From: Geothrix sp. SG200
GTDB taxonomy: Bacteria; Acidobacteriota; Holophagae; Holophagales; Holophagaceae
Direction: 5' to 3'
DNA: 64,000 nucleotides
Assembly (NCBI RefSeq): GCF_022808935.1
Contig: NZ_JAKZFR010000006.1
Coordinates: 62,001 to 126,000 of the forward strand
Shown here: one piece after another, positions 52,208 through 63,730 of the stretch
Position numbering within the stretch: position 1 is the stretch's first letter
Layout of the letters: every line of letters starts with the position of its first letter
The notes under the pieces: model-generated
What the model was told of the DNA's origin: nothing
The model's database searches: none
The model's input: only the letters and a program-made list of their open reading frames with translations
Position numbers and translations under genes: made by a program

Positions 52208-55200
52208 ATGTCTATGGCAGCGCAGCGGCCACCACGATCCATCAAGGGTGGGTCATCATCCTTCTCCCGGCGTTCCGTGGGGCTGTTTCTGGCCCAGGCG
52301 GTACTAGCCCTGGCCATGGCCTGCGGAGGTGGTGGCGGAACGCCCCCCCCAAACACGGCCCCCCTGATCACCACCCAACCAGCCAGCCAGACCGTGAACG
52401 CCGGCAGTGCAGCCACCTTCACGGCCGCGGCCAGCGGCACGCCTGCACCCACCTTTACCTGGCAACGCAGCAACGACGGTGGCACCAGCTGGACAGCGAT
52501 CCCCGGCGCGACCAGCGCGACCTATACCACCGCCGCCACTGTCAAGGCGGACAATGCCGCCCAGTTCCGCGCCGTGGCCACCAACAACGTTAGCCCGGAT
52601 GCCACCAGCACCGCGGCCACGCTGACCGTACGGTGGCTCGCCATCACCACCCAACCCGCCAACGCGAGTGTGACGGCCGGTGCCACGGCCACCTTCACCG
52701 TGGTGCCGGATGCCAGCCCGGTCGCTACCTATCAGTGGCAATCCAGCACGAACGGAACCACCTGGGCGAACGTGTCCAGCGGCACGGGCGCCACGAGCGC
52801 CAGTTACACGACAGCCGCCACCTCCTTGAGTGACACGGGCACACAGTATCGTTGCGCCTTGACCAACGCCGCTGGGACGCTCAACAGCAGTGGGGCCACG
52901 CTCACGGTGATCGCGGCTCCGGTCATCACCAGCTTCGTCGCAGCCAAGAGTCCCGTGACCACGGGAACCGGCACGACATTGACCGCAGTGTTCACGGGGG
53001 GAACGGGCACTGTGGACCACGGCATCGGCACCGTGACCAGCGGTGTTGCCGTGCCCACGGGCAATGTGGCGACCACAACGGTTTTCACCCTGACTGTGAC
53101 CAACGCAACGGGCACCGCCGTCACTCTGCCAGTGACCGTGACCGCGGTGGCCGCACCGACGACTCCCGTGGTCACGGCCCCGGCCAATGTGACCGCCAAC
53201 CAGGCGGGTTACACCGCGTCGGTCCCGGCTCAGGCCGGCAGCACCTATGCCTGGACCCTCACGAATGGAAGCATCACGGCCGGCGCCAGCACGACCAGCA
53301 TCACGTTCACGGCGGGGGCATCCGGGACCGCCACGCCCTCCTGTATCGTCACCAATGCCGCCGGGACGGCCTCCACGGCCGGAACCGCCACGTGCACCAT
53401 CGTGGCCGCACCGACGACCCCCGTGATCACGGCCCCGGCCAATGTGACCGCCAGCCAGACGGGCTACACCGCGTCGGTCCCGGCTCAGGCGGGCAGCACC
53501 TATGCCTGGACCCTCACGAATGGAAGCATCACGGCCGGCGCCAGCACGACCAGCATCACGTTCACGGCGGGAGCCTCAGGCAACACCATCCCGTCCTGCA
53601 TCGTCACCAATGCCGCCGGCACGGCCTCCACGGCCGGAACCGCCACGTGCGCCATCGTGGCCGCACCGACGACTCCCGTGATCACGGCCCCGGCCAATGT
53701 GACCGCCAGCCAGGCGGGCTACACCGCGTCGGTCCCGGCTCAGGCGGGCAGCACCTATGCCTGGACCATCACGAATGGAAGCATCACGGCCGGCGCCAGC
53801 ACGACCAGCATCACGTTCACGGCGGGGGCATCCGGGACCGCCACGCCCTCCTGCATCGTCACCAATGCCGCCGGGACGGCCTCCACGGCCGGAACCGCCG
53901 CCTGCACCATCGTGGCCGCACCAACGACTCCGGTGGTCACGGCCCCGGCCAATGTGACCGCCAGCCAGGCGGGTTACACCGCGTCGGTCCCGGCTCAGCC
54001 GGGCAGCACCTATGCCTGGACCATCACGAATGGAAGCATCACGGCCGGCGCCAGCACGACCAGCATCACGTTCACGGCGGGCGCATCCGGCAGCACCATC
54101 CTGTCCTGCATCGTCACCAATGCCGCCGGCACGGCCTCCATGGCCGGAACCGCCACCTGCACCATCGTGGCCGCTCCGGCCATCACCAGCTTCACCGCAA
54201 GTGGCGGCCTCAGCACCATCACCATCACCAACGGCCTTAGCACCACCCTGTCGTTCACCTTCAGTGGAGGCACGGGTTCCATCGATCAGGGCGTGGGCTC
54301 CGTCACCAGCCTCGGAACAAAGAATGTGAGCCCGACAGTCACCACGACCTATACCCTGACCGTGGACAATGGCGTGAGTACCCCCGCGACAGCCCAGGTG
54401 ACCGTGAATGTGGTGGACCCGCCCGTGATAACCAGCTTCACGGCCGCGGACTCGCTCATCGCTCCGGGCACGAGCACGACCCTGACCGGAGCTTTCACCG
54501 GTGGATCAGGCTCTGTTGACCATGGCGTCGGTGCCGTGACGACCGCGGTTGCCGAGACCACCGGCAACCTGACGACCACCACCACCTTCACCTTGACTGT
54601 GACCAACACGGCGACCACTCCCGCCACGGCCACGGCTACGGCCACCGTGACCGTGGGTAACACCCTCACCGTGAACATCACGGGGCTGGGCAGCCTGCCA
54701 GGCAATGTGGTTGTCACTGGACCCAACGGCTACACCAGCGCGGTGCTAACCGCTGCCACGCAAACGCTCTCGGGCCTGGCGGACGGCGACTACACCATCA
54801 CCCCCGCTGTGGTCACGGACCCGAGCCAACCTGGCCAGGGGCGAGGCGTCGATGGCACCGGCACGCCTGGGACCTTGGGACCCGCCAACCTGCAGCGCTA
54901 CCCTGCCGTGCTTTCGCTGACCCAGACCCTCGCCCTCGCGGGCACCAATACCGCGACCGTAGGCGTGGATTACCCCGCCCCGTACCTGACCGTCACGGTG
55001 CCTGCGGACCCGATGGTGCCGATCCTCAGCACCTCGATCGACCTGGTCCTGGTCCCGGCGGGAACCTTCACCATGGGCGAAACGGAGTCTGTTGTCGGGT
55101 CAGATCCCTCGACGCAGCCTTCACATGGCGTGACCTTGGGCAAGGCGTTCTACATCTCGAAGGCGCCCTGCACCCAGGCCCAGTGGGTGGCCATCATGAA

Positions 55201-55873
55201 CAACAACCCCGCGCATTTCACAACGGGCAATGGATTCCCGGATCCGGAGGAGCTGACTCGGCCTGTGGAAACGGTGGACTTCGACGCCATTACCACCCCC
55301 AGTACGGGCTTCCTGGACATGCTGAATTCGGCCGCGGCGTCGGTTCTGACGGGCCCGCTAGCAGGCAGTTCCTTCCGTCTGCCCACGGAAGCTGAGTACG
55401 AATACGCCTGCCGGGCCGGGAGTGGATCCACGGTGCTGAACGTCCCCGATCCCTTGAACAATAACTATTATTTCGGTTCCTATGATCCAGGTGGCGGAGA
55501 CCCGGCCGTCATCCTGCTCGTCCAGCAGTACATGTGGCATTCCGGCAACAGCAACCTGACCACTCAGCCGGTAACCAAGAAACTCCCCAACGCCTGGGGC
55601 CTGTACGACATGATCGGCAACGTGTGGGAGCTCTGCCGGGATGATTGGCATGCCGATTATTCCGTCACTGGAGCGGGCATCCCCCCGCTCCCGGTTGATG
55701 GCAGTGCCTGGCTGGATGCCACGCCGAACATCCAGCACTCGTACAAGGGCGGTTCCTGGGCTGGCACCGCGAGCGATGGCCAGTCCAAGCGACGTGGGGC
55801 CTATCCCATCAATCCAGTTCCCACTCCCGCCAATGAATACGCAGGTTTCCGCCTGGTCCTCCCGCTGCCTTGA
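52208..55873 (+). CDS. Large Ig-like repeat surface protein with C-terminal FGE-sulfatase domain
   Basis: 1221 residues. The N-terminus is a lipoprotein-like signal (VLALAMACGGGGG, weak lipobox). Ig-like modules fill residues 50-920. They include four tandem 85-residue repeats at about 318-657 (each starts APTTPVxTAPANVTAxQ) that are almost identical in DNA. The C-terminus (about 945-1221) is an FGE-sulfatase/SUMF1 domain (VPAGTFTMGE, RLPTEAEYEYACRAG, GNVWELCRDDW, YAGFRLV). It is likely an outer-surface protein, with the FGE domain as an enzyme or binding module. CAGGAG precedes the ATG by 6 bases. Confidence 0.85.
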   Translation: MSMAAQRPPRSIKGGSSSFSRRSVGLFLAQAVLALAMACGGGGGTPPPNTAPLITTQPASQTVNAGSAATFTAAASGTPAPTFTWQRSNDGGTSWTAIPGATSATYTTAATVKADNAAQFRAVATNNVSPDATSTAATLTVRWLAITTQPANASVTAGATATFTVVPDASPVATYQWQSSTNGTTWANVSSGTGATSASYTTAATSLSDTGTQYRCALTNAAGTLNSSGATLTVIAAPVITSFVAAKSPVTTGTGTTLTAVFTGGTGTVDHGIGTVTSGVAVPTGNVATTTVFTLTVTNATGTAVTLPVTVTAVAAPTTPVVTAPANVTANQAGYTASVPAQAGSTYAWTLTNGSITAGASTTSITFTAGASGTATPSCIVTNAAGTASTAGTATCTIVAAPTTPVITAPANVTASQTGYTASVPAQAGSTYAWTLTNGSITAGASTTSITFTAGASGNTIPSCIVTNAAGTASTAGTATCAIVAAPTTPVITAPANVTASQAGYTASVPAQAGSTYAWTITNGSITAGASTTSITFTAGASGTATPSCIVTNAAGTASTAGTAACTIVAAPTTPVVTAPANVTASQAGYTASVPAQPGSTYAWTITNGSITAGASTTSITFTAGASGSTILSCIVTNAAGTASMAGTATCTIVAAPAITSFTASGGLSTITITNGLSTTLSFTFSGGTGSIDQGVGSVTSLGTKNVSPTVTTTYTLTVDNGVSTPATAQVTVNVVDPPVITSFTAADSLIAPGTSTTLTGAFTGGSGSVDHGVGAVTTAVAETTGNLTTTTTFTLTVTNTATTPATATATATVTVGNTLTVNITGLGSLPGNVVVTGPNGYTSAVLTAATQTLSGLADGDYTITPAVVTDPSQPGQGRGVDGTGTPGTLGPANLQRYPAVLSLTQTLALAGTNTATVGVDYPAPYLTVTVPADPMVPILSTSIDLVLVPAGTFTMGETESVVGSDPSTQPSHGVTLGKAFYISKAPCTQAQWVAIMNNNPAHFTTGNGFPDPEELTRPVETVDFDAITTPSTGFLDMLNSAAASVLTGPLAGSSFRLPTEAEYEYACRAGSGSTVLNVPDPLNNNYYFGSYDPGGGDPAVILLVQQYMWHSGNSNLTTQPVTKKLPNAWGLYDMIGNVWELCRDDWHADYSVTGAGIPPLPVDGSAWLDATPNIQHSYKGGSWAGTASDGQSKRRGAYPINPVPTPANEYAGFRLVLPLP
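53158..54177 (+). repeat. Four tandem 255-bp repeats inside the Ig/FGE gene
   Basis: Copies of exactly 255 bases (85 codons) begin near 53158, 53413, 53668 and 53923. Only a few substitutions distinguish them (for example TLTN/TITN, QAG/QTG). Such near-identity implies recent duplication or gene conversion. Confidence 0.85.
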
Positions 55874-56192: not shown

Positions 56193-56295
56193 CAGAAGCG
56201 CCTGAATGGAGGTTCCTAGCGCATCGCCGCACCCGAGGCCTTGTGGTCATGCGGTTATAAAACAACCATGGCTCAATGGTGGCGGCGTTCTTGAT

Positions 56296-56320
56296 TGGTA
56301 GCTGGGGCAGGATTTGAACC
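56296..56320 (-). repeat. Degenerate copy of the tRNA-fMet 3' end
   Basis: TGGTAGC-GGGGCAGGATTTGAACC matches the 3' acceptor/T-arm of the tRNA at 56927 apart from one changed base. No body of a tRNA follows. Confidence 0.7.
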
Positions 56321-56398
56321 GTTGCCGCCAATGAATCGCGCCTGTATCCGCTGCGACAGCTCCCGGGCTGCCTTCGCGTGGCGCTCATCGGGCGACTG

Positions 56399-56680
56399 CC
56401 ACTCGCAGGTCCAAATCCGGCCTGTCTCCGCCTTTGGCGCCGACCCATGCGATCCGGATTTGAACTGGTCCCGCTGCGCGGTCCCCGGTCCTGCTCCGGC
56501 AGGACATCTGGTCCTGCCTCCGCAATCCCACTCGCAGGCCCAAATCCTGCCCGTCTCCGCCTTTGGCGCCGACTCATGCGATCTGGATTTGAACTGGTCC
56601 CGCTGCGCAGACCCCGGTCTTGCTCCGGCAGGACATCTAGTCCTGCCTCCGCAATCCCACTCGCAGGCCCAAATCCTGCC
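56399..56680. repeat. 129-bp direct repeats (two full plus partial copies)
   Basis: CCACTCGCAGG starts copies at 56399, 56528 and 56657, each 129 bases apart; a fourth occurrence is at 56846. The units share TGGCGCCGACxCATGCGATCx, GGATTTGAACTGGTCCCGC and GGTCCTGCTCCGGCAGGACA-type segments. Each begins with CGCAGGxCCAAATCC, the T-arm of the tRNA in the opposite sense. Confidence 0.7.
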
Positions 56681-56763
56681 CTTCCGTTATAGGCGCACGC
56701 AAAGACCGGAGCACTCGGCTCCGGTCATCTGTTTGGTTGGTAGCGGGGGCAGGATTTGAACCT
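56657..56763. repeat. Upstream copy of the 106-bp tRNA-end and terminator repeat
   Basis: This segment recurs at 56846-56952, 189 bases further on, almost unchanged. It holds CCGTTATAGGCG, the GACCGGAG/CTCCGGTC hairpin (56704-56726) and a 26-base copy of the tRNA 3' end (56738-56763). Confidence 0.75.
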
Positions 56764-56892
56764 CAGTTGCCGGCGACCACTTGCGCGTGTGTCCGCTGCG
56801 ACAGCGCCGGTGCGCTGTCTTCGCGGCGCGCTCGCGGGCCGGCTGCCACTCGCAGGCCCAAATCCTGCCCTTCCGTTATAGGCGTACGCAAA

Positions 56893-56915
56893 GACCGGAG
56901 CACTCGGCTCCGGTC
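56893..56915 (-). terminator. Terminator of the tRNA-fMet gene
   Basis: Stem GACCGGAG (56893-56900) with CTCCGGTC (56908-56915), loop of 7. On the minus strand it is followed by TTTGCG. A duplicate lies at 56704-56726. Confidence 0.6.
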
Positions 56916-56926
56916 ATCTGTTCGGT

Positions 56927-57003
<77 letters not shown>

Positions 57004-57149
57004 GTAGGAACTTAGACCTACTGTTCATGCGGGTTCAGGAGGGTCATGGATTGCCGCCCTCCGATATGGTGGCCGGGAGTTGTGTCCATGTTGTGCCTTG
57101 AGGCTCTGAGTAGGGAGTGAAGGAACCCCGTCCACTGACGGAGTTCCAC

Positions 57150-58184
57150 ATGGCATCGATCCCAGGACTGAAGAAAGTTGGCCCCTATTGGCACTTCACC
57201 CTGAAGGTCAATGGGCAGCGGGCCCACGGGTCTACACGGGCAACAGACCTAGCAACAGCCAGGAAGATCCTAGAAGAGAAGAGAAGAGAGCTACTTGAAG
57301 GTCAGCATCGCATCGTTAGCAGAATGCCAACCCTTCAAGAGTTGTTTGACTCCTGGTTGATCGGCCACAAATCAGCCTTCAGTCGTGGGCATTTGGTTTC
57401 CGTTGAGTGCATTTATCGCCGCTGGATTGCCCCGCGCTTCGGCTCACGCCATCTGGATCAGATCACTTCCACTGAGGTGCTGAAACTCCGTGAGTCCCAA
57501 CTTGCAAATGGGTGCTCGCAGCGATACGCCAACAACACCATTCAGGTTCTTACAACCCTCCTGAATTACGGGATCAGGCTTCAATGCATCAAATTGCTAC
57601 CATTCAAGGTCAGCCCGCTGAGGATTCAGAGAAGACCAAGGATCACCATCCCTGCGTCACGACTGACAGAGTTCTTTGATACGGTTGATGCTCAGACTGC
57701 CAACCCGCATATTCGCGCATTGCTAAGGGTCATGGTCGGGCTAGGCCTCAGAGAGAGCGAAGCGCTTGGGATGAGGTGGGAATGGATTGACATAGAAGCG
57801 AGGGTATATACACCTGGAAAAGCTAAGGGTAAGGAGGCGCGACAGCTGCCAATTCCGAATTGGTTATTGAGCGAGCTTCAAAGACTACCCATCACAATCA
57901 GTCCTTGGATATTCCCTGCCGCTGACGGCAAGCCACACCGGCCACAATTCTGCAAAAAGGTGCTACAGCGTGTCTGTAAGGCGATGGGATTCTCTCGAAT
58001 TACAAACCATCGCCTTCGTGCCACCTTTGCAACACTTCATGCTGAGGCTGGCACGCCAATTACAGCGATTCAAGACATGTTGGGCCACAAGAATGTCTCG
58101 ACGACGATGATCTATGTAGAGACCAACCTCCTTGCGAAACGAAAAGCACAGGAAGTTCTAGAGCAAAGGCTCGGACTTGCGTGA
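57150..58184 (+). CDS. Tyrosine-type site-specific integrase
   Basis: 344 residues. The N-terminal AP2-like arm-binding domain (MASIPGLKKVGPYWHFTLKV) is followed by a SAM-like core-binding domain and the catalytic domain with R201 (LRESEALGMRW), K228 region (KGKEARQLPIP), H287-x-x-R290 (HRLRATFATLH), H313 (LGHKNVSTT) and nucleophile Y322. All catalytic positions are intact, so it may be active. Base composition is clearly lower in GC than the genes to the left. It begins 147 bases from the tRNA-fMet 5' end. GGAG lies 6 bases before the ATG; a GTG at 57117 is an alternative. Confidence 0.92.
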   Translation: MASIPGLKKVGPYWHFTLKVNGQRAHGSTRATDLATARKILEEKRRELLEGQHRIVSRMPTLQELFDSWLIGHKSAFSRGHLVSVECIYRRWIAPRFGSRHLDQITSTEVLKLRESQLANGCSQRYANNTIQVLTTLLNYGIRLQCIKLLPFKVSPLRIQRRPRITIPASRLTEFFDTVDAQTANPHIRALLRVMVGLGLRESEALGMRWEWIDIEARVYTPGKAKGKEARQLPIPNWLLSELQRLPITISPWIFPAADGKPHRPQFCKKVLQRVCKAMGFSRITNHRLRATFATLHAEAGTPITAIQDMLGHKNVSTTMIYVETNLLAKRKAQEVLEQRLGLA

Positions 58185-58461: not shown

Positions 58462-59499
58462 ATGTCTACCTTTCCATACTTCCCGATCCTTCGTTGGAAA
58501 TTGGGTGAGCAAGGCGCAGTTAAAAACCTTGTGCCTGGAGACCGAACAAGCATGTTGCCTTTGGCAGAGGTCCAGTTGCTAGAGCCAGGGGCCGCCCAAC
58601 CCAAATTGAAAGCCAGTTTAGAAAAAGCTCAGGCCGCCAGCGCGCCAATCGGCATCGATCTTTCGGCGGCGTATGATGGCCCAGTTCCCCTAGCAGAATT
58701 AGCAAAACTCACCACCGCATTTCAAAGCGAGGGATTACAGGTATGGCCAGTCGTCCAGGCCGCTGATGCTTTGCTTGGGATCACCGGATTGAGTGTATTC
58801 AATAAGCAACCGGGGTTTGTGCTTCGGATCTTTCCGAATGAAACGAATCTCCCCACCGCCCTTTCGATCTTGCAAGCCATCCGGAAGGCTTGTGGCCGGA
58901 ATACTCTGTTGTATGCAGTCATCGATCTTGACGCTATTGGCGATATTGACCTCACTGCTCTAGCGGGCATGGCCCATCCTTTCGTTAGGGACATCCAGGC
59001 AAGTGGTCTAGTGCATCAAGTCGCTGTCGCAGGAGGCTCCTTCCCTTACTCACTTGCGGGTATCCCTGTCGGCGCGGCGAATAACCTGCTCAGAAAGGAA
59101 CTGGAAGTTTGGAAACTGGTTCGGGCTCTTCCGGGCTGTTCGGGTGTGGCCTTTGGTGACTATTGCGTTACAAGCCCGAAGCCATTAGAAGATCTGAATC
59201 CTTGGGAAATGAATCCAGCTGCAGCAATCCGCTACACCTTGAAAAATCATTGGTGGTTACTACGAGGCTCTGGCATCAAGACGAAGGGAGCCGGTGGAAT
59301 GGGTCAATACAACAGCCTTTGTAAGCTCCTGGTAGCGCACGCCAACTATGGGGGAACCACCTTCAGTTTCGGAGATGGTCGATACGATCATCACGCGAAG
59401 CCTGGCAGCACTTCAGGCAATCTGATGACTTGGAGGCGGGATGCCACCAGCCATCACCTTGTCTACACTGTCCGCCAATTGCTAAGTGGCCATGTGTGA
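58462..59499 (+). CDS. Beta-family protein (sce7725-like partner of the sce7726-like nuclease)
   Basis: 345 residues. The N-terminus FPYFPILRWKLGEQGAVKNL plus later alternating strand-helix units (APIGIDLSAAY, GFVLRIFPNE, LLYAVIDLDAIGDID, HQVAVAGGSFPYS, CSGVAFGDYCVT) resemble the 'beta protein' family, a TIM-barrel-like group of unknown function found near mobile elements. Conserved-looking RYTLKNHWWLLRGSGIK and FSFGDGRYDHHAKPGS blocks at the end may form an active site. It ends convergently with the nuclease gene, overlapping by 18 bases. AGGAG lies 6 bases before the ATG. Family assignment is by recall of pattern. Confidence 0.65.
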   Translation: MSTFPYFPILRWKLGEQGAVKNLVPGDRTSMLPLAEVQLLEPGAAQPKLKASLEKAQAASAPIGIDLSAAYDGPVPLAELAKLTTAFQSEGLQVWPVVQAADALLGITGLSVFNKQPGFVLRIFPNETNLPTALSILQAIRKACGRNTLLYAVIDLDAIGDIDLTALAGMAHPFVRDIQASGLVHQVAVAGGSFPYSLAGIPVGAANNLLRKELEVWKLVRALPGCSGVAFGDYCVTSPKPLEDLNPWEMNPAAAIRYTLKNHWWLLRGSGIKTKGAGGMGQYNSLCKLLVAHANYGGTTFSFGDGRYDHHAKPGSTSGNLMTWRRDATSHHLVYTVRQLLSGHV

Positions 59500-60081
59500 T
59501 CGTGAGCGGAGTGACATTCTCGATTGAAGGGTCGCGATGACCTCGGCTCGAATCCGTTCCAGCGGGATGGCCTTGGCAATAGCCTCATAAATTGTGTGCC
59601 GGGGTGCCTTGGCCTTCACTGCTGCTCCACCCTCAGCAACCAAAAATCCGTAGGCCTCATCGCGCCAAAGCAACCCGGCCAAACTCGCCGGATCCTGTCG
59701 GTTGTGTATCATCGCGGGTCTTTGTTCAATTAGGACCACCATCCCATCCTCGCTCGGGACGGCCAAAAATATTCCCCACCATCTAGGGAGCAATGCCTCG
59801 ACCTGTGCAATGTATGCCATGGTCGTCACAATCGTGAGCGAGTCGAAAATTCTGTGGTAGGTGTGCATCTGGCGTGCGAGACGATCTAGGTTGTCGAAAT
59901 CACTTTTGATTTCGAAACCCACCAGGTGATTCGACACTAGGGCTACATCGATTCGAGCAGCCCCGTGTTCAACTCCTAGCTCCTCGACCAAGACCTCTCC
60001 ACCCTGTAGGCGAGAACGCAACTTCAGCACGAGTGCCGTTCGGATGGCCGACTCACTCAGGAGGGTAGGGGCTTGTGCCAT
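59482..60081 (-). CDS. sce7726-like PD-(D/E)XK nuclease
   Basis: 199 residues. D45, E57 and K59 (ARIDVALVSNHLVGFEIKSD) form a PD-(D/E)XK nuclease signature; an upstream Glu (E33 or E34) completes it. The following DFDNLDRLARQMHTYHRIFD is a family-type extension seen in sce7726 proteins. It would be a cytoplasmic metal-dependent DNA nuclease. It is convergent with the beta-family gene and divergent from the HTH gene, with only 29 bases between start codons. Weak ribosome site. Confidence 0.75.
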   Translation of the reverse strand: MAQAPTLLSESAIRTALVLKLRSRLQGGEVLVEELGVEHGAARIDVALVSNHLVGFEIKSDFDNLDRLARQMHTYHRIFDSLTIVTTMAYIAQVEALLPRWWGIFLAVPSEDGMVVLIEQRPAMIHNRQDPASLAGLLWRDEAYGFLVAEGGAAVKAKAPRHTIYEAIAKAIPLERIRAEVIATLQSRMSLRSRSHMAT

Positions 60082-60110
60082 GCCGCCAGTATGGCATAAG
60101 ATATTCAACT

Positions 60111-60515
60111 ATGCAAAATAGAAGGCACACCACAGATTCTCGCATCGAGGGCATTCGCCAGGCTCTCATGAGGAAAATGAAAAAAAATGAACACAGTCAG
60201 TTGGAGGTTTCACGCCTATCTGGAGTCCCGCAAAGCATCATAAGTCGTTTCCTCTCAGGCAAGACAAAAAGGATCTCAAAAAACATCGTCGAATTATGCA
60301 AATATGCGGATATTGATCCAGCCATGCTCCTTCCCCGAGGGCAGGAGGAGCGCCGACTCTCCCATGTGCTTCACAACGCCATTGGCGACAATCCAGCAGC
60401 TGCACTGATCCTCGCTCGGATCGTAGAATCCTTAACTCCACTCCTCCGCAACTGCACCCTCGATCCTTCCGTCCAACCTTCAGGAGCTGCCCATGGCCGC
60501 ACACGCGCTCGCTGA
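60111..60515 (+). CDS. Helix-turn-helix (XRE-like) regulator
   Basis: 134 residues. HTH at about residues 28-70 (QLEVSRLSGVPQSIISRFLS then GKTKRISKNIVELCKYADI). The rest (HVLHNAIGDNPAAALILARI) is helical. It is likely the repressor of the operon and, through the shared 29-base region, of the nuclease gene. It overlaps the metallopeptidase gene by 23 bases. Confidence 0.8.
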   Translation: MQNRRHTTDSRIEGIRQALMRKMKKNEHSQLEVSRLSGVPQSIISRFLSGKTKRISKNIVELCKYADIDPAMLLPRGQEERRLSHVLHNAIGDNPAAALILARIVESLTPLLRNCTLDPSVQPSGAAHGRTRAR

Positions 60516-61515
60516 TGTATACCGAGGACTCAAGGAGGTCGGCCTAACTAAGGGTCAGGTCAGGGCAATCCTGCCTGATTGGTGGGATCCAGAGGTCGCC
60601 ACAACGGATTCAGGTCTCTGGGAAACGGCCATTCTCCTCGGCCGCCGACTAAGCCTTGAGGCAGAGGCATTAATCGAGGGAAGGGTTCAACCCTGCGAAA
60701 GCATCTCCCGACCTAGATTCAAACACACAGCAAGGGTTTCTCCAGATCAGCTTCGGCCTGCCGCGATGATTGCTTCGGGATTGGCGAAGGCGATTCTCGG
60801 TTCAATACCTGTAGCGGAATCTCATGGGCGGATTAGTGTGAAGTCCGTCAGGGCAGAGCTTCTAAAGACGCCAAATAGGCGCATAGATTTTGATGCAATT
60901 CTTGATTTTGCATGGAATATTGGAATCCCTGTGATTCCACTTCCTTACCTCCCCAAGGGGATTCGGAAGATGGATGCCGCTGCGATCAAGGTGGGTAGTC
61001 GACCCGCAATTATCTTGGCTCTCCGCACCAATTCAAAGGCTTGGATAAGCTTCCTCCTTGCCCACGAATTAGGTCACATATGTCTTGGCCATATTCCTGA
61101 AAACGGAGCCTTGTTTGAGGGCTCATTGACGGATACTTCGGAATTTGATGCTCAGTCCCAGATGGATCAACAAGAGCGAAGCGCGAACGAGTTTGCTCTA
61201 GAGCTCCTAGGCGGGCATGAAGTCGAACGACAAATTGCTCAATGGGGCCACGCAATGCCCGCGATCGAGCTTGCGGCCAAGGCGAGTGAGTTGGCCTCCG
61301 CTCTAAAGACGGCACCAGGCCATCTCGTCCTTCGCCACGCGTTCATGACGCATGCATGGCCTGAAGCTCGAATAGCACTGAAGTTCCTTACAGACGATCT
61401 GGATGCTCAGCCAGCTCTAGTGAATCGGATGACGCGAGAGATCGACATGCAATCCATCTCTGATGACCTCCGAGACTATTTGGAACAAATCACCGGATTG
61501 GTAGCCGAGGGCTGA
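60493..61515 (+). CDS. ImmA/IrrE family metallopeptidase
   Basis: 340 residues. Zinc motif HELGH at 191-195 (LAHELGHICLGH) and the third ligand region E228 (QQERSANEFALELL) identify the COG2856/ImmA-IrrE family, whose members cleave XRE repressors in mobile elements. The N-terminal 100 residues are helical and could recognise a partner. AGGAG lies 6 bases before the ATG. With the HTH upstream, a protease/repressor switch is likely. Confidence 0.88.
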   Translation: MAAHALADVYRGLKEVGLTKGQVRAILPDWWDPEVATTDSGLWETAILLGRRLSLEAEALIEGRVQPCESISRPRFKHTARVSPDQLRPAAMIASGLAKAILGSIPVAESHGRISVKSVRAELLKTPNRRIDFDAILDFAWNIGIPVIPLPYLPKGIRKMDAAAIKVGSRPAIILALRTNSKAWISFLLAHELGHICLGHIPENGALFEGSLTDTSEFDAQSQMDQQERSANEFALELLGGHEVERQIAQWGHAMPAIELAAKASELASALKTAPGHLVLRHAFMTHAWPEARIALKFLTDDLDAQPALVNRMTREIDMQSISDDLRDYLEQITGLVAEG

Positions 61516-61523
61516 GGCTGCCC

Positions 61524-62144
61524 ATGCGAAGAGTATTTGCAGACAATGATGTATTGCTGGACGCCGCACATTGGGGGTTTTTGGATGTCATTCCCAGAAT
61601 GGTGGGGGCTCCTTGGGAGTCCATTACTGTTCTGGATAGCTTACGATTTAGGACAAAAAAATGTGATCCGAAGCTCTTCTCTAACCCCAGAGTGGCTGCG
61701 GAACTCGCCCAGCGAATTCAATTGACCGCTCCTCCCCCAGGCCTTGATTTGGCGGTTCTGAGTCGACTCGAGGAAATGCCTGGATTGGATGGTGGTGAGA
61801 TCATCCTGATTTCAGCCTTGGCCTTCTGGCTCCCTAAGGGCGAGGGTCTGCTCCTGACTGGCGATAAGAGGGCGTTGCGTGCACTTGCTCATCCAAGCAT
61901 TTCAGACATCGCGGACATGCTCAGAGGCAAAGTTCTCTGCCGCGAACATCTACTCCGACATGTGCTTGAAGTGAGCGGTCCCGTCGCTCTTGCAACCGGC
62001 GTCGATCAAGCAAGGGGACGCGACAAGGCCACAGACTGCATTGTTCCTCCCGCATGCAGCGCGTCAGCCCCTTCCATTCATGAAGGGTTGACCTCCTACC
62101 TAGGTGACCTCGCAAAAATCACCACAGTATTAGTTCATCCTTAA
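61524..62144 (+). CDS. PIN-like nuclease
   Basis: 206 residues. D7/D9 (VFADNDVLLDAA), E92 (LDGGEIILISAL) and D114 (LLTGDKRAL) fall in the order and spacing of PIN-domain active sites. PIN domains cleave RNA and are common toxins. It starts 8 bases after the metallopeptidase stop, so the three genes form one operon. The C-terminal 60 residues are unassigned. Confidence 0.75.
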   Translation: MRRVFADNDVLLDAAHWGFLDVIPRMVGAPWESITVLDSLRFRTKKCDPKLFSNPRVAAELAQRIQLTAPPPGLDLAVLSRLEEMPGLDGGEIILISALAFWLPKGEGLLLTGDKRALRALAHPSISDIADMLRGKVLCREHLLRHVLEVSGPVALATGVDQARGRDKATDCIVPPACSASAPSIHEGLTSYLGDLAKITTVLVHP

Positions 62145-62557: not shown

Positions 62558-63730
62558 TTACCAGATGAGTGTGGTAGCTACTTTAATTGCGATGTCCGGA
62601 ATACGGAGGCAATCGACATCAAACCTTCTCTGAATCTGCCCATCGACAAGCATGGCGAAGCTCCCTTGGTTTGCTAAGTCGGCATAGGCTCGGACCTCTT
62701 CCACACTCCAATACTCCGGACTCATGGCGATCGTCTTGAGGATCCTGCGCGTTCTGGGTGCAAGCCTGTCCCATTTGTCAGACTCGATGACCGCAACCTC
62801 GAATTCACATTGGGTCATCGCTTCCTTACCGTGCGTGTCAAAGCATCCCCCAAGCGAGAGCCACTTTTTGCCCTGCAGGGCCATGGTGAATTCGGAATAC
62901 TCGTCTCCCGTCAGGGCCGAAGCGATTCCACCATTCTTGGCGATACCGTTAATGGTTTCGTTCGTGAGATCCCACCTCTCCGGCCCCCCTGGACGGAAGA
63001 AGCCCGATACCCCTGAGCCTTGCGGGGATACCCATCCTGACCTCCAGGAGACCTGTCTTGCTTCGCCAATGAGCTGAAGGCTGTGGCGTGAAAAGTGCGC
63101 TTTGAAGTGTTGTTCCTTCGCTTCCCACATGCGTTGATGCAACTGGGTATCCAAGCCTCTAAGGGTGTAAGTAAACTGAGTGTGAGGGTGGGCCCCATTT
63201 CCATGCAGACGACCAGTCGTGCATTCCGTGGAGCAGATCCACCCTTCAATGAGACCTTTTGCTACAGGGGACTCTCGGAAGGAGGCTTCGGCCCCTCTCT
63301 GCAATCTGATCAAACCTTCGATGCTATCTCCCTTGTGGTGTTGGCAGGTAATTGCTCCTGAGTAGGTGATGCACCCGTCAATGGCGCCGGAATTTTTAAG
63401 TCCGACGATCCTGGAATCCAGCTTCGCCAGTTCGCGTCTTACGAGGATTGGGCCGCAATACACACACTCTGGATTGAAGCAGTCAATGACTCCTGCAACT
63501 ACTCCGTAGGCTCTTCCTCGTAGGTCTATGCCGCGCCTAATCCTGACCCTCTCAGCCGCCTTACTCCCACAACCAAGGAGGAGCTGCAGGGTCGCTCCCG
63601 CCCATGGCTTTTGTGATGAATTGGAAAGCTCTGCAAGGAGGATTTCGTTTGCCAGATGGTGGTCGATCTGATTTCGTATCGCCCTTTTCTGCTGTGATTG
63701 TTGCTTGCTGCTGCTGTAGTTCGTTGACAC
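62558..63730 (-). CDS. HUH-type replication-initiator-like protein
   Basis: 390 residues. A Cys cluster C84, C89, C92 (CFNPECVYCGPILVRREL) and the HUH-like HPH motif at 181-183 (GNGAHPHTQFTYTLRG) follow the order in rolling-circle plasmid Rep proteins, which nick origin DNA through a Tyr. A central strand SGAITYSGAITCQHHKG fits the Rep fold. The nucleophilic Tyr cannot be pinned down by eye. It suggests a plasmid- or ICE-derived part of the island. GTG start at 63730. Confidence 0.6.
   Translation of the reverse strand: MSTNYSSSKQQSQQKRAIRNQIDHHLANEILLAELSNSSQKPWAGATLQLLLGCGSKAAERVRIRRGIDLRGRAYGVVAGVIDCFNPECVYCGPILVRRELAKLDSRIVGLKNSGAIDGCITYSGAITCQHHKGDSIEGLIRLQRGAEASFRESPVAKGLIEGWICSTECTTGRLHGNGAHPHTQFTYTLRGLDTQLHQRMWEAKEQHFKAHFSRHSLQLIGEARQVSWRSGWVSPQGSGVSGFFRPGGPERWDLTNETINGIAKNGGIASALTGDEYSEFTMALQGKKWLSLGGCFDTHGKEAMTQCEFEVAVIESDKWDRLAPRTRRILKTIAMSPEYWSVEEVRAYADLANQGSFAMLVDGQIQRRFDVDCLRIPDIAIKVATTLIW

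Follow-up and report, generated by a model that had tools for sequence, protein, structure and literature searches.

We found that a convergent pair of genes, encoding a beta-family protein and the sce7726-family protein cII, lies in the window (the whole 64,000-nucleotide stretch of Geothrix sp. SG200 DNA analyzed here) on a low-GC, integrase-bearing insertion at a tRNA-Met gene, ~7.9 kb long between its repeats. The pair adjoins and travels with an operon coding for an HTH protein, an ImmA/IrrE-type protease, and a PIN-like protein (60111-62144), which was absent from the first-pass annotation of this DNA. With confidence evenly divided, we propose that the five genes form a mobile, toxin-antitoxin-like anti-phage module that would be triggered by infection and is built on a beta-cII core with a repressor-protease switch. 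The protein families, the folds of beta and cII, the invariant residues, the co-inheritance, the convergent overlap, the recurrence of the five genes, and their common motif are direct observations. For the defence role we relied on homologues that have been tested rather than on the neighbouring integrase, and the position of the integrase as evidence in its own right was set aside in their favour.

The beta gene (58462-59499, + strand; 345 aa) matched PF14350 (Beta_protein, E 3.5e-39) and cII (59482-60081, - strand; 199 aa, with an alternative TTG start at 60108 that adds 9 residues) matched NF033832 (E 4.8e-37), so profile searches returned the beta-family and sce7726-like assignments claimed earlier. 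AlphaFold2 models built from the alignments of this work reached a pLDDT of 95.3 for beta and 94.8 for cII. The beta model matched only generic TIM barrels, the best being VIA (Z 12.9, 208 residues, 3.5 Å), and the earlier label of TIM-barrel-like therefore stands. All 71 aligned beta homologues keep residues D155, R211, D233, Y258, and H332, and D66, R122, D155, R211, and D233 sit at or just past strand ends in the model, which is where the active sites of TIM barrels are found. The cII residues D45, E57, and K59, previously read as those of a nuclease, proved invariant across 78 homologues, as did R14, E34, G55, D63, R67, and Q71, and the cII protein of satellite phage P4 likewise keeps E34, D45, E57, and K59. 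Structural matches of the cII model were restriction-endonuclease-like folds (3dnx, Z 11.8 over 136 residues at 3.4 Å; PaqCI, Z 8.6; Can2, Z 8.4). By its residues and modelled fold, cII is a PD-(D/E)XK-type protein with predicted nuclease activity. Family profiles aligned to the P4 proteins by hhalign gave a probability of 98.6 and E 4.9e-16 for beta and E 1.5e-22 for cII. Window cII also matched the PADLOC model 'cll' (E 3.3e-30), a name that we read as cII, and window beta matched PADLOC PD-Lambda-2_C (PDLC03983, E 7.7e-33), a model matched by 71/71 aligned beta homologues, while PADLOC 'beta' matched 52/71.

The coordinates and strands were confirmed as first reported, as were the 18 nt (59482-59499) over which the convergent genes overlap in antisense at their 3′ ends. 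Across 396 genomes of the phylum, beta was present in 6, cII in 10, and both in 5 (hypergeometric P 2e-8), adjacent and convergent in 5/5; the sce7726 family is thus wider than the pair, since five other genomes of the phylum have a member with no beta match. Two such genes in phylum genomes (L039 and L040) adjoin tRNA-Phe genes. When a genome collection was scanned with cII alone as seed, beta was present in 79 of the best 80 loci, the closest relatives, and the pair was convergent and overlapping in 79/79. Together with the count in the phylum, this agrees with the earlier claim that the two genes recur as neighbours. In 80 cII loci from viral contigs, beta was present in 74, all convergent and 73 overlapping, and in three of the six without it (L140, L141, and L166) the stored sequence stops at cII. 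Single-sequence scans of viral data with beta and with IrrE found nothing.

In the 79 genome loci the overlap spanned 4-162 nt (median 50) and reached at least 20 nt in 73. Its length equalled 2 modulo 3 in 71/79 loci, and in 38/43 once the loci had been thinned at 60% cII identity (P 1e-13 for an expectation of one third), a shared phase that in our reading descends from a single ancestral overlap. The 18-nt overlap of the window belongs to the minority phase, and P4 has a 27-nt gap instead. For a base rate, a small sample of 90 kb of annotated sequence held 13 convergent pairs, 3 overlapping and only 1 by at least 20 nt. Distances between beta proteins followed those between cII proteins (Mantel r 0.77; none of 999 permutations exceeded 0.14). 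A sample of 106 neighbour genes, taken with no control set, held type I restriction-modification genes and recombinases amid housekeeping genes.

Diverging from cII, the HTH gene (60111-60515, + strand) encodes an Xre/Cro-like candidate repressor that matched phrog_4 (E 1.3e-6) and, below the cut-off, HTH_3 (E 2.7e-4); its ORF can be read from a GTG at 60075, and the start at 60111 was set by comparison of cassettes. The next gene (60493-61515, + strand) encodes an ImmA/IrrE-type (M78) metallopeptidase with matches to PF06114 (E 8.7e-5; 22.8 bits against a cut-off of 22), phrog_18577 (E 6.5e-57), and capP (E 1.5e-9). The HExxH residues H191, E192, and H195, plus E228, are invariant in 12 homologues, and by profile the protein is a protease of the CapP/RmrA/PD-λ-2B kind. 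The third gene (61524-62144, + strand) matched phrog_15597 (E 2.1e-11), had no Pfam match and no PDB sequence match, and keeps D7, D9, D89, E92, and D114 invariant in 11 homologues; taken from the motif alone, its PIN identity would make it a probable RNA-cutting enzyme. Sequence searches gave no convincing solved-structure relative for beta, cII, IrrE, or the PIN-like protein.

Comparison of cassettes also delimits the 29-bp stretch between the start codons of cII and HTH (60082-60110), where TATGGCATA at 60090-60098 is the sole TATGSCATA in the 64 kb. The motif TATGC/GCATA occurred 21 times in seven non-redundant cassettes, whereas 500 letter shuffles led us to expect 2.2 and never gave more than 7. 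We regard TATGGCATA as a candidate operator, and the repressor role of the HTH protein is likewise putative. Scans for promoters and terminators gave no excess over shuffles.

The core occurs with different partners. Among the genes just upstream of beta, 31 of the 40 scanned matched PD-Lambda-2_B, an Xre-protease (best E 3.7e-155), indicating that a convergent cII is present in many PD-λ-2-type loci and that gop-β-cII and PD-λ-2 are linked through one beta-cII core of which the Xre-protease is often the partner. In 18 loci there is also a HigB-like family, its members about 95 aa long, and one genome (G151) has beta with an upstream Xre-IrrE gene and no cII match. Two loci of Flavobacteriales (L075 and L112) carry a 170-179-aa family directly upstream of beta, in the usual place of the Xre-protease. 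The window represents another partner class, in which HTH-IrrE-PIN-like genes diverge from cII. A congener carries the five genes at 86-96% identity in a different place, with only a 39-aa match to the integrase end alongside, and the set recurs in six further loci, mostly of Lysobacteraceae (L049-L054, of which L052 and L053 are near-copies). IrrE and PIN are retained in L055 and L058, and in two Gemmatimonadota loci (L065 and L069) they lie upstream of beta on its own strand. On the beta+cII tree the two classes require at least two label changes by starred branches; from this tree, IrrE-PIN is taken to have joined beta-cII at least twice. The Holophagaceae rows are nested among Pseudomonadota, which suggests horizontal transfer.

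The first-pass annotation held that the function of the pair was not described. On this point it was mistaken, as beta and cII, together with gop, make up the three-gene system gop-β-cII of P4, which is reported to give resistance to λ and P1 and whose Gop is toxic without β (Rousset 2022, PMC9122126). The order in P4 (NC_001609) is gop, beta, convergent cII, and int, and that record labels β as 'beta family protein' and cII as 'sce7726 family protein'. Both arrangements have homologous, convergent beta and cII genes with an integrase nearby, on the beta side in the window and on the cII side in P4; the island, however, has no gop (P4 Gop gave no match to its six frames at E up to 1) and adds the HTH-IrrE-PIN-like operon. 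In PD-λ-2, tested in E. coli (Vassallo 2022, PMC9519451), component C is needed for defence against λvir and not for toxin neutralisation; window beta matches this component, as given above, whereas window IrrE matches component B weakly and only over 142-261 (E 1.5e-6). PD-λ-2 has an Xre-peptidase fusion upstream of beta, whereas the HTH and IrrE of the window are two ORFs beyond cII, and its published three-gene definition does not include the cII that the window pair has. A HigB-like HMM found no match in the island, with 21 hits in the positive control. Without gop, HigB, or an upstream Xre-peptidase fusion, the set was filed under neither system, although it shares its core with both and probably works like them.

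Switches made of a repressor and a protease are known from CapP/CapH and ImmA/ImmR. As in these, an HTH gene of the island adjoins one for an HExxH protease, which also fits the capP profile; unlike them, the island has no CBASS or ICE genes, and cleavage of the repressor is putative here. In the literature within reach of our search, which did not extend to subscription papers and preprints, no description of the five-gene combination was found, and the beta and sce7726 families were named together in a single paper, where they appear just as entries of a table listing strain-specific loci.

Under the module that we propose, the HTH protein of a quiet cell would repress cII and the HTH-IrrE-PIN operon from TATGSCATA-type sites in the region where the two diverge. 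Infection would activate the IrrE-type protease, cleavage of the HTH repressor would raise both transcripts, and cII, cutting DNA as a PD-(D/E)XK protein, and the PIN-like protein, cutting RNA, would then damage the phage and perhaps its host as well. Beta may act as a sensor, or as a neutraliser that restrains an effector before infection as P4 β does with Gop. We infer every functional step of this switch and the order of its events; cII and IrrE both keep their catalytic residues. Against it count the absence of gop and HigB from the island, the weak HTH match, and the assignment of PIN by motif, and since component C of PD-λ-2 is unnecessary for toxin neutralisation, the role of beta may differ from the one proposed. 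It is conceivable, and we suggest it tentatively, that this is a distinct five-gene defence system whose one repressor, when proteolysed, frees DNA- and RNA-cutting effectors from a single bidirectional control site, and that beta-cII is a general, exchangeable core whose antisense overlap, mostly in one phase across phyla, couples the two mRNAs.

The main rival is that two independent modules adjoin: beta-cII would be self-sufficient, HTH-IrrE-PIN would be a toxin-antitoxin-like system of its own, and each would defend or persist alone. It holds this place because each half is also found by itself, which counts against the switch, as the halves may work apart. Beta-cII occurs without IrrE-PIN in prophage Rac-SA53, Gordonia phage Powerball, and Bacillota loci, and in Enterobacter soli and Klebsiella P2-type prophages carry IrrE and a gene of ~212 aa between the replication endonuclease and portal genes, with no HTH, beta, or cII alongside. 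This prophage IrrE is 27-29% identical to that of the window over 97% of its length, and the ~212-aa gene follows directly, in the same order as in the window, and is likened to the PIN-like gene by its size. The site is the P2 gpA-gpQ hotspot (PMC9122126), which holds this stand-alone pair, a position that we count in favour of the proposed module; no published functional test of the pair was found. Nevertheless, all five genes have moved together across families, IrrE-PIN and beta-cII were joined independently at least twice and in differing layouts, and cII and the HTH operon have a motif in common. These points speak against independence, and we consider two modules a rather doubtful explanation.

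An addiction module that kills cells losing the island, with no direct anti-phage role, would fit the toxin-antitoxin-like partners (HigB-like, PIN-like, and IrrE), the location on an integrase island, and the toxicity of P4 Gop when β is missing; it appears unlikely, as phage resistance was seen with each of the two homologous systems that have been tested and the congener keeps the five genes elsewhere with little of an integrase beside them (the 39-aa match). Least probable, and in our judgement very improbable, is a DNA-repair or metabolic pair, in which cII would be a structure-specific nuclease for host DNA and beta a metabolic TIM-barrel enzyme. The top structural match of cII, 3dnx, is an uncharacterised protein, others are repair or excision proteins, and the beta model does match metabolic TIM barrels, but the distribution is patchy (beta in 6/396 and cII in 10/396 genomes), the partners are toxin-antitoxin-like, and the homologues were tested in defence.

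The wider meaning of this locus is that one beta-cII core joins two defence systems that were reported separately, gop-β-cII and PD-λ-2. It points to cII as a component that many loci have and the definition of PD-λ-2 omits, and it brings in the HTH-IrrE-PIN-like operon as the third set of partners. The tail-to-tail overlap of the beta and cII coding regions, near-universal as it is, represents an unusual gene arrangement, open to direct test for a regulatory role.

The call of an integrase island was borne out by several features. An 85-bp direct repeat (56926-57010, - strand) containing the tRNA-Met gene (56927-57003, called by ARAGORN) recurs just outside the window at 64826-64910, where 84/85 positions are identical and ARAGORN again calls a tRNA, and the GC content of the island is 53% against 69% for window positions 1-56000. 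The tyrosine integrase (57117-58184, + strand) matched PF00589 (E 5.1e-27) and phrog_1 (E 6.1e-53). The site is unoccupied in a congener (G025): with no island in between, tRNA-Met is grouped there with the left-hand gene (93% identical) and the gene for the M1 peptidase (98%). Besides the integrase and the five genes, the island holds one gene with no family match, an ORF of 390 aa (62558-63730, - strand). Searches with Pfam, NCBIfam, PADLOC, and PHROGs gave it no match, none of the loci searched had a relative, and it lies outside the five-gene set of the congener.

On an Agrobacterium plasmid (L209), the pair and an Xre gene lie amid SIR2, reverse transcriptase, helicase, and recombinase genes. 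Left of tRNA-Met in the window, a direct-repeat array (56291-56960, with copies of 107 and 157 bp) includes a 27-bp piece of the tRNA end at 56737-56763; these are perhaps traces of earlier insertions. A 1221-aa ORF (52208-55873, + strand) contains several near-identical repeats, each of roughly 85-90 residues, and its C-terminal part resembles, by eye, a formylglycine-generating-enzyme-type domain.
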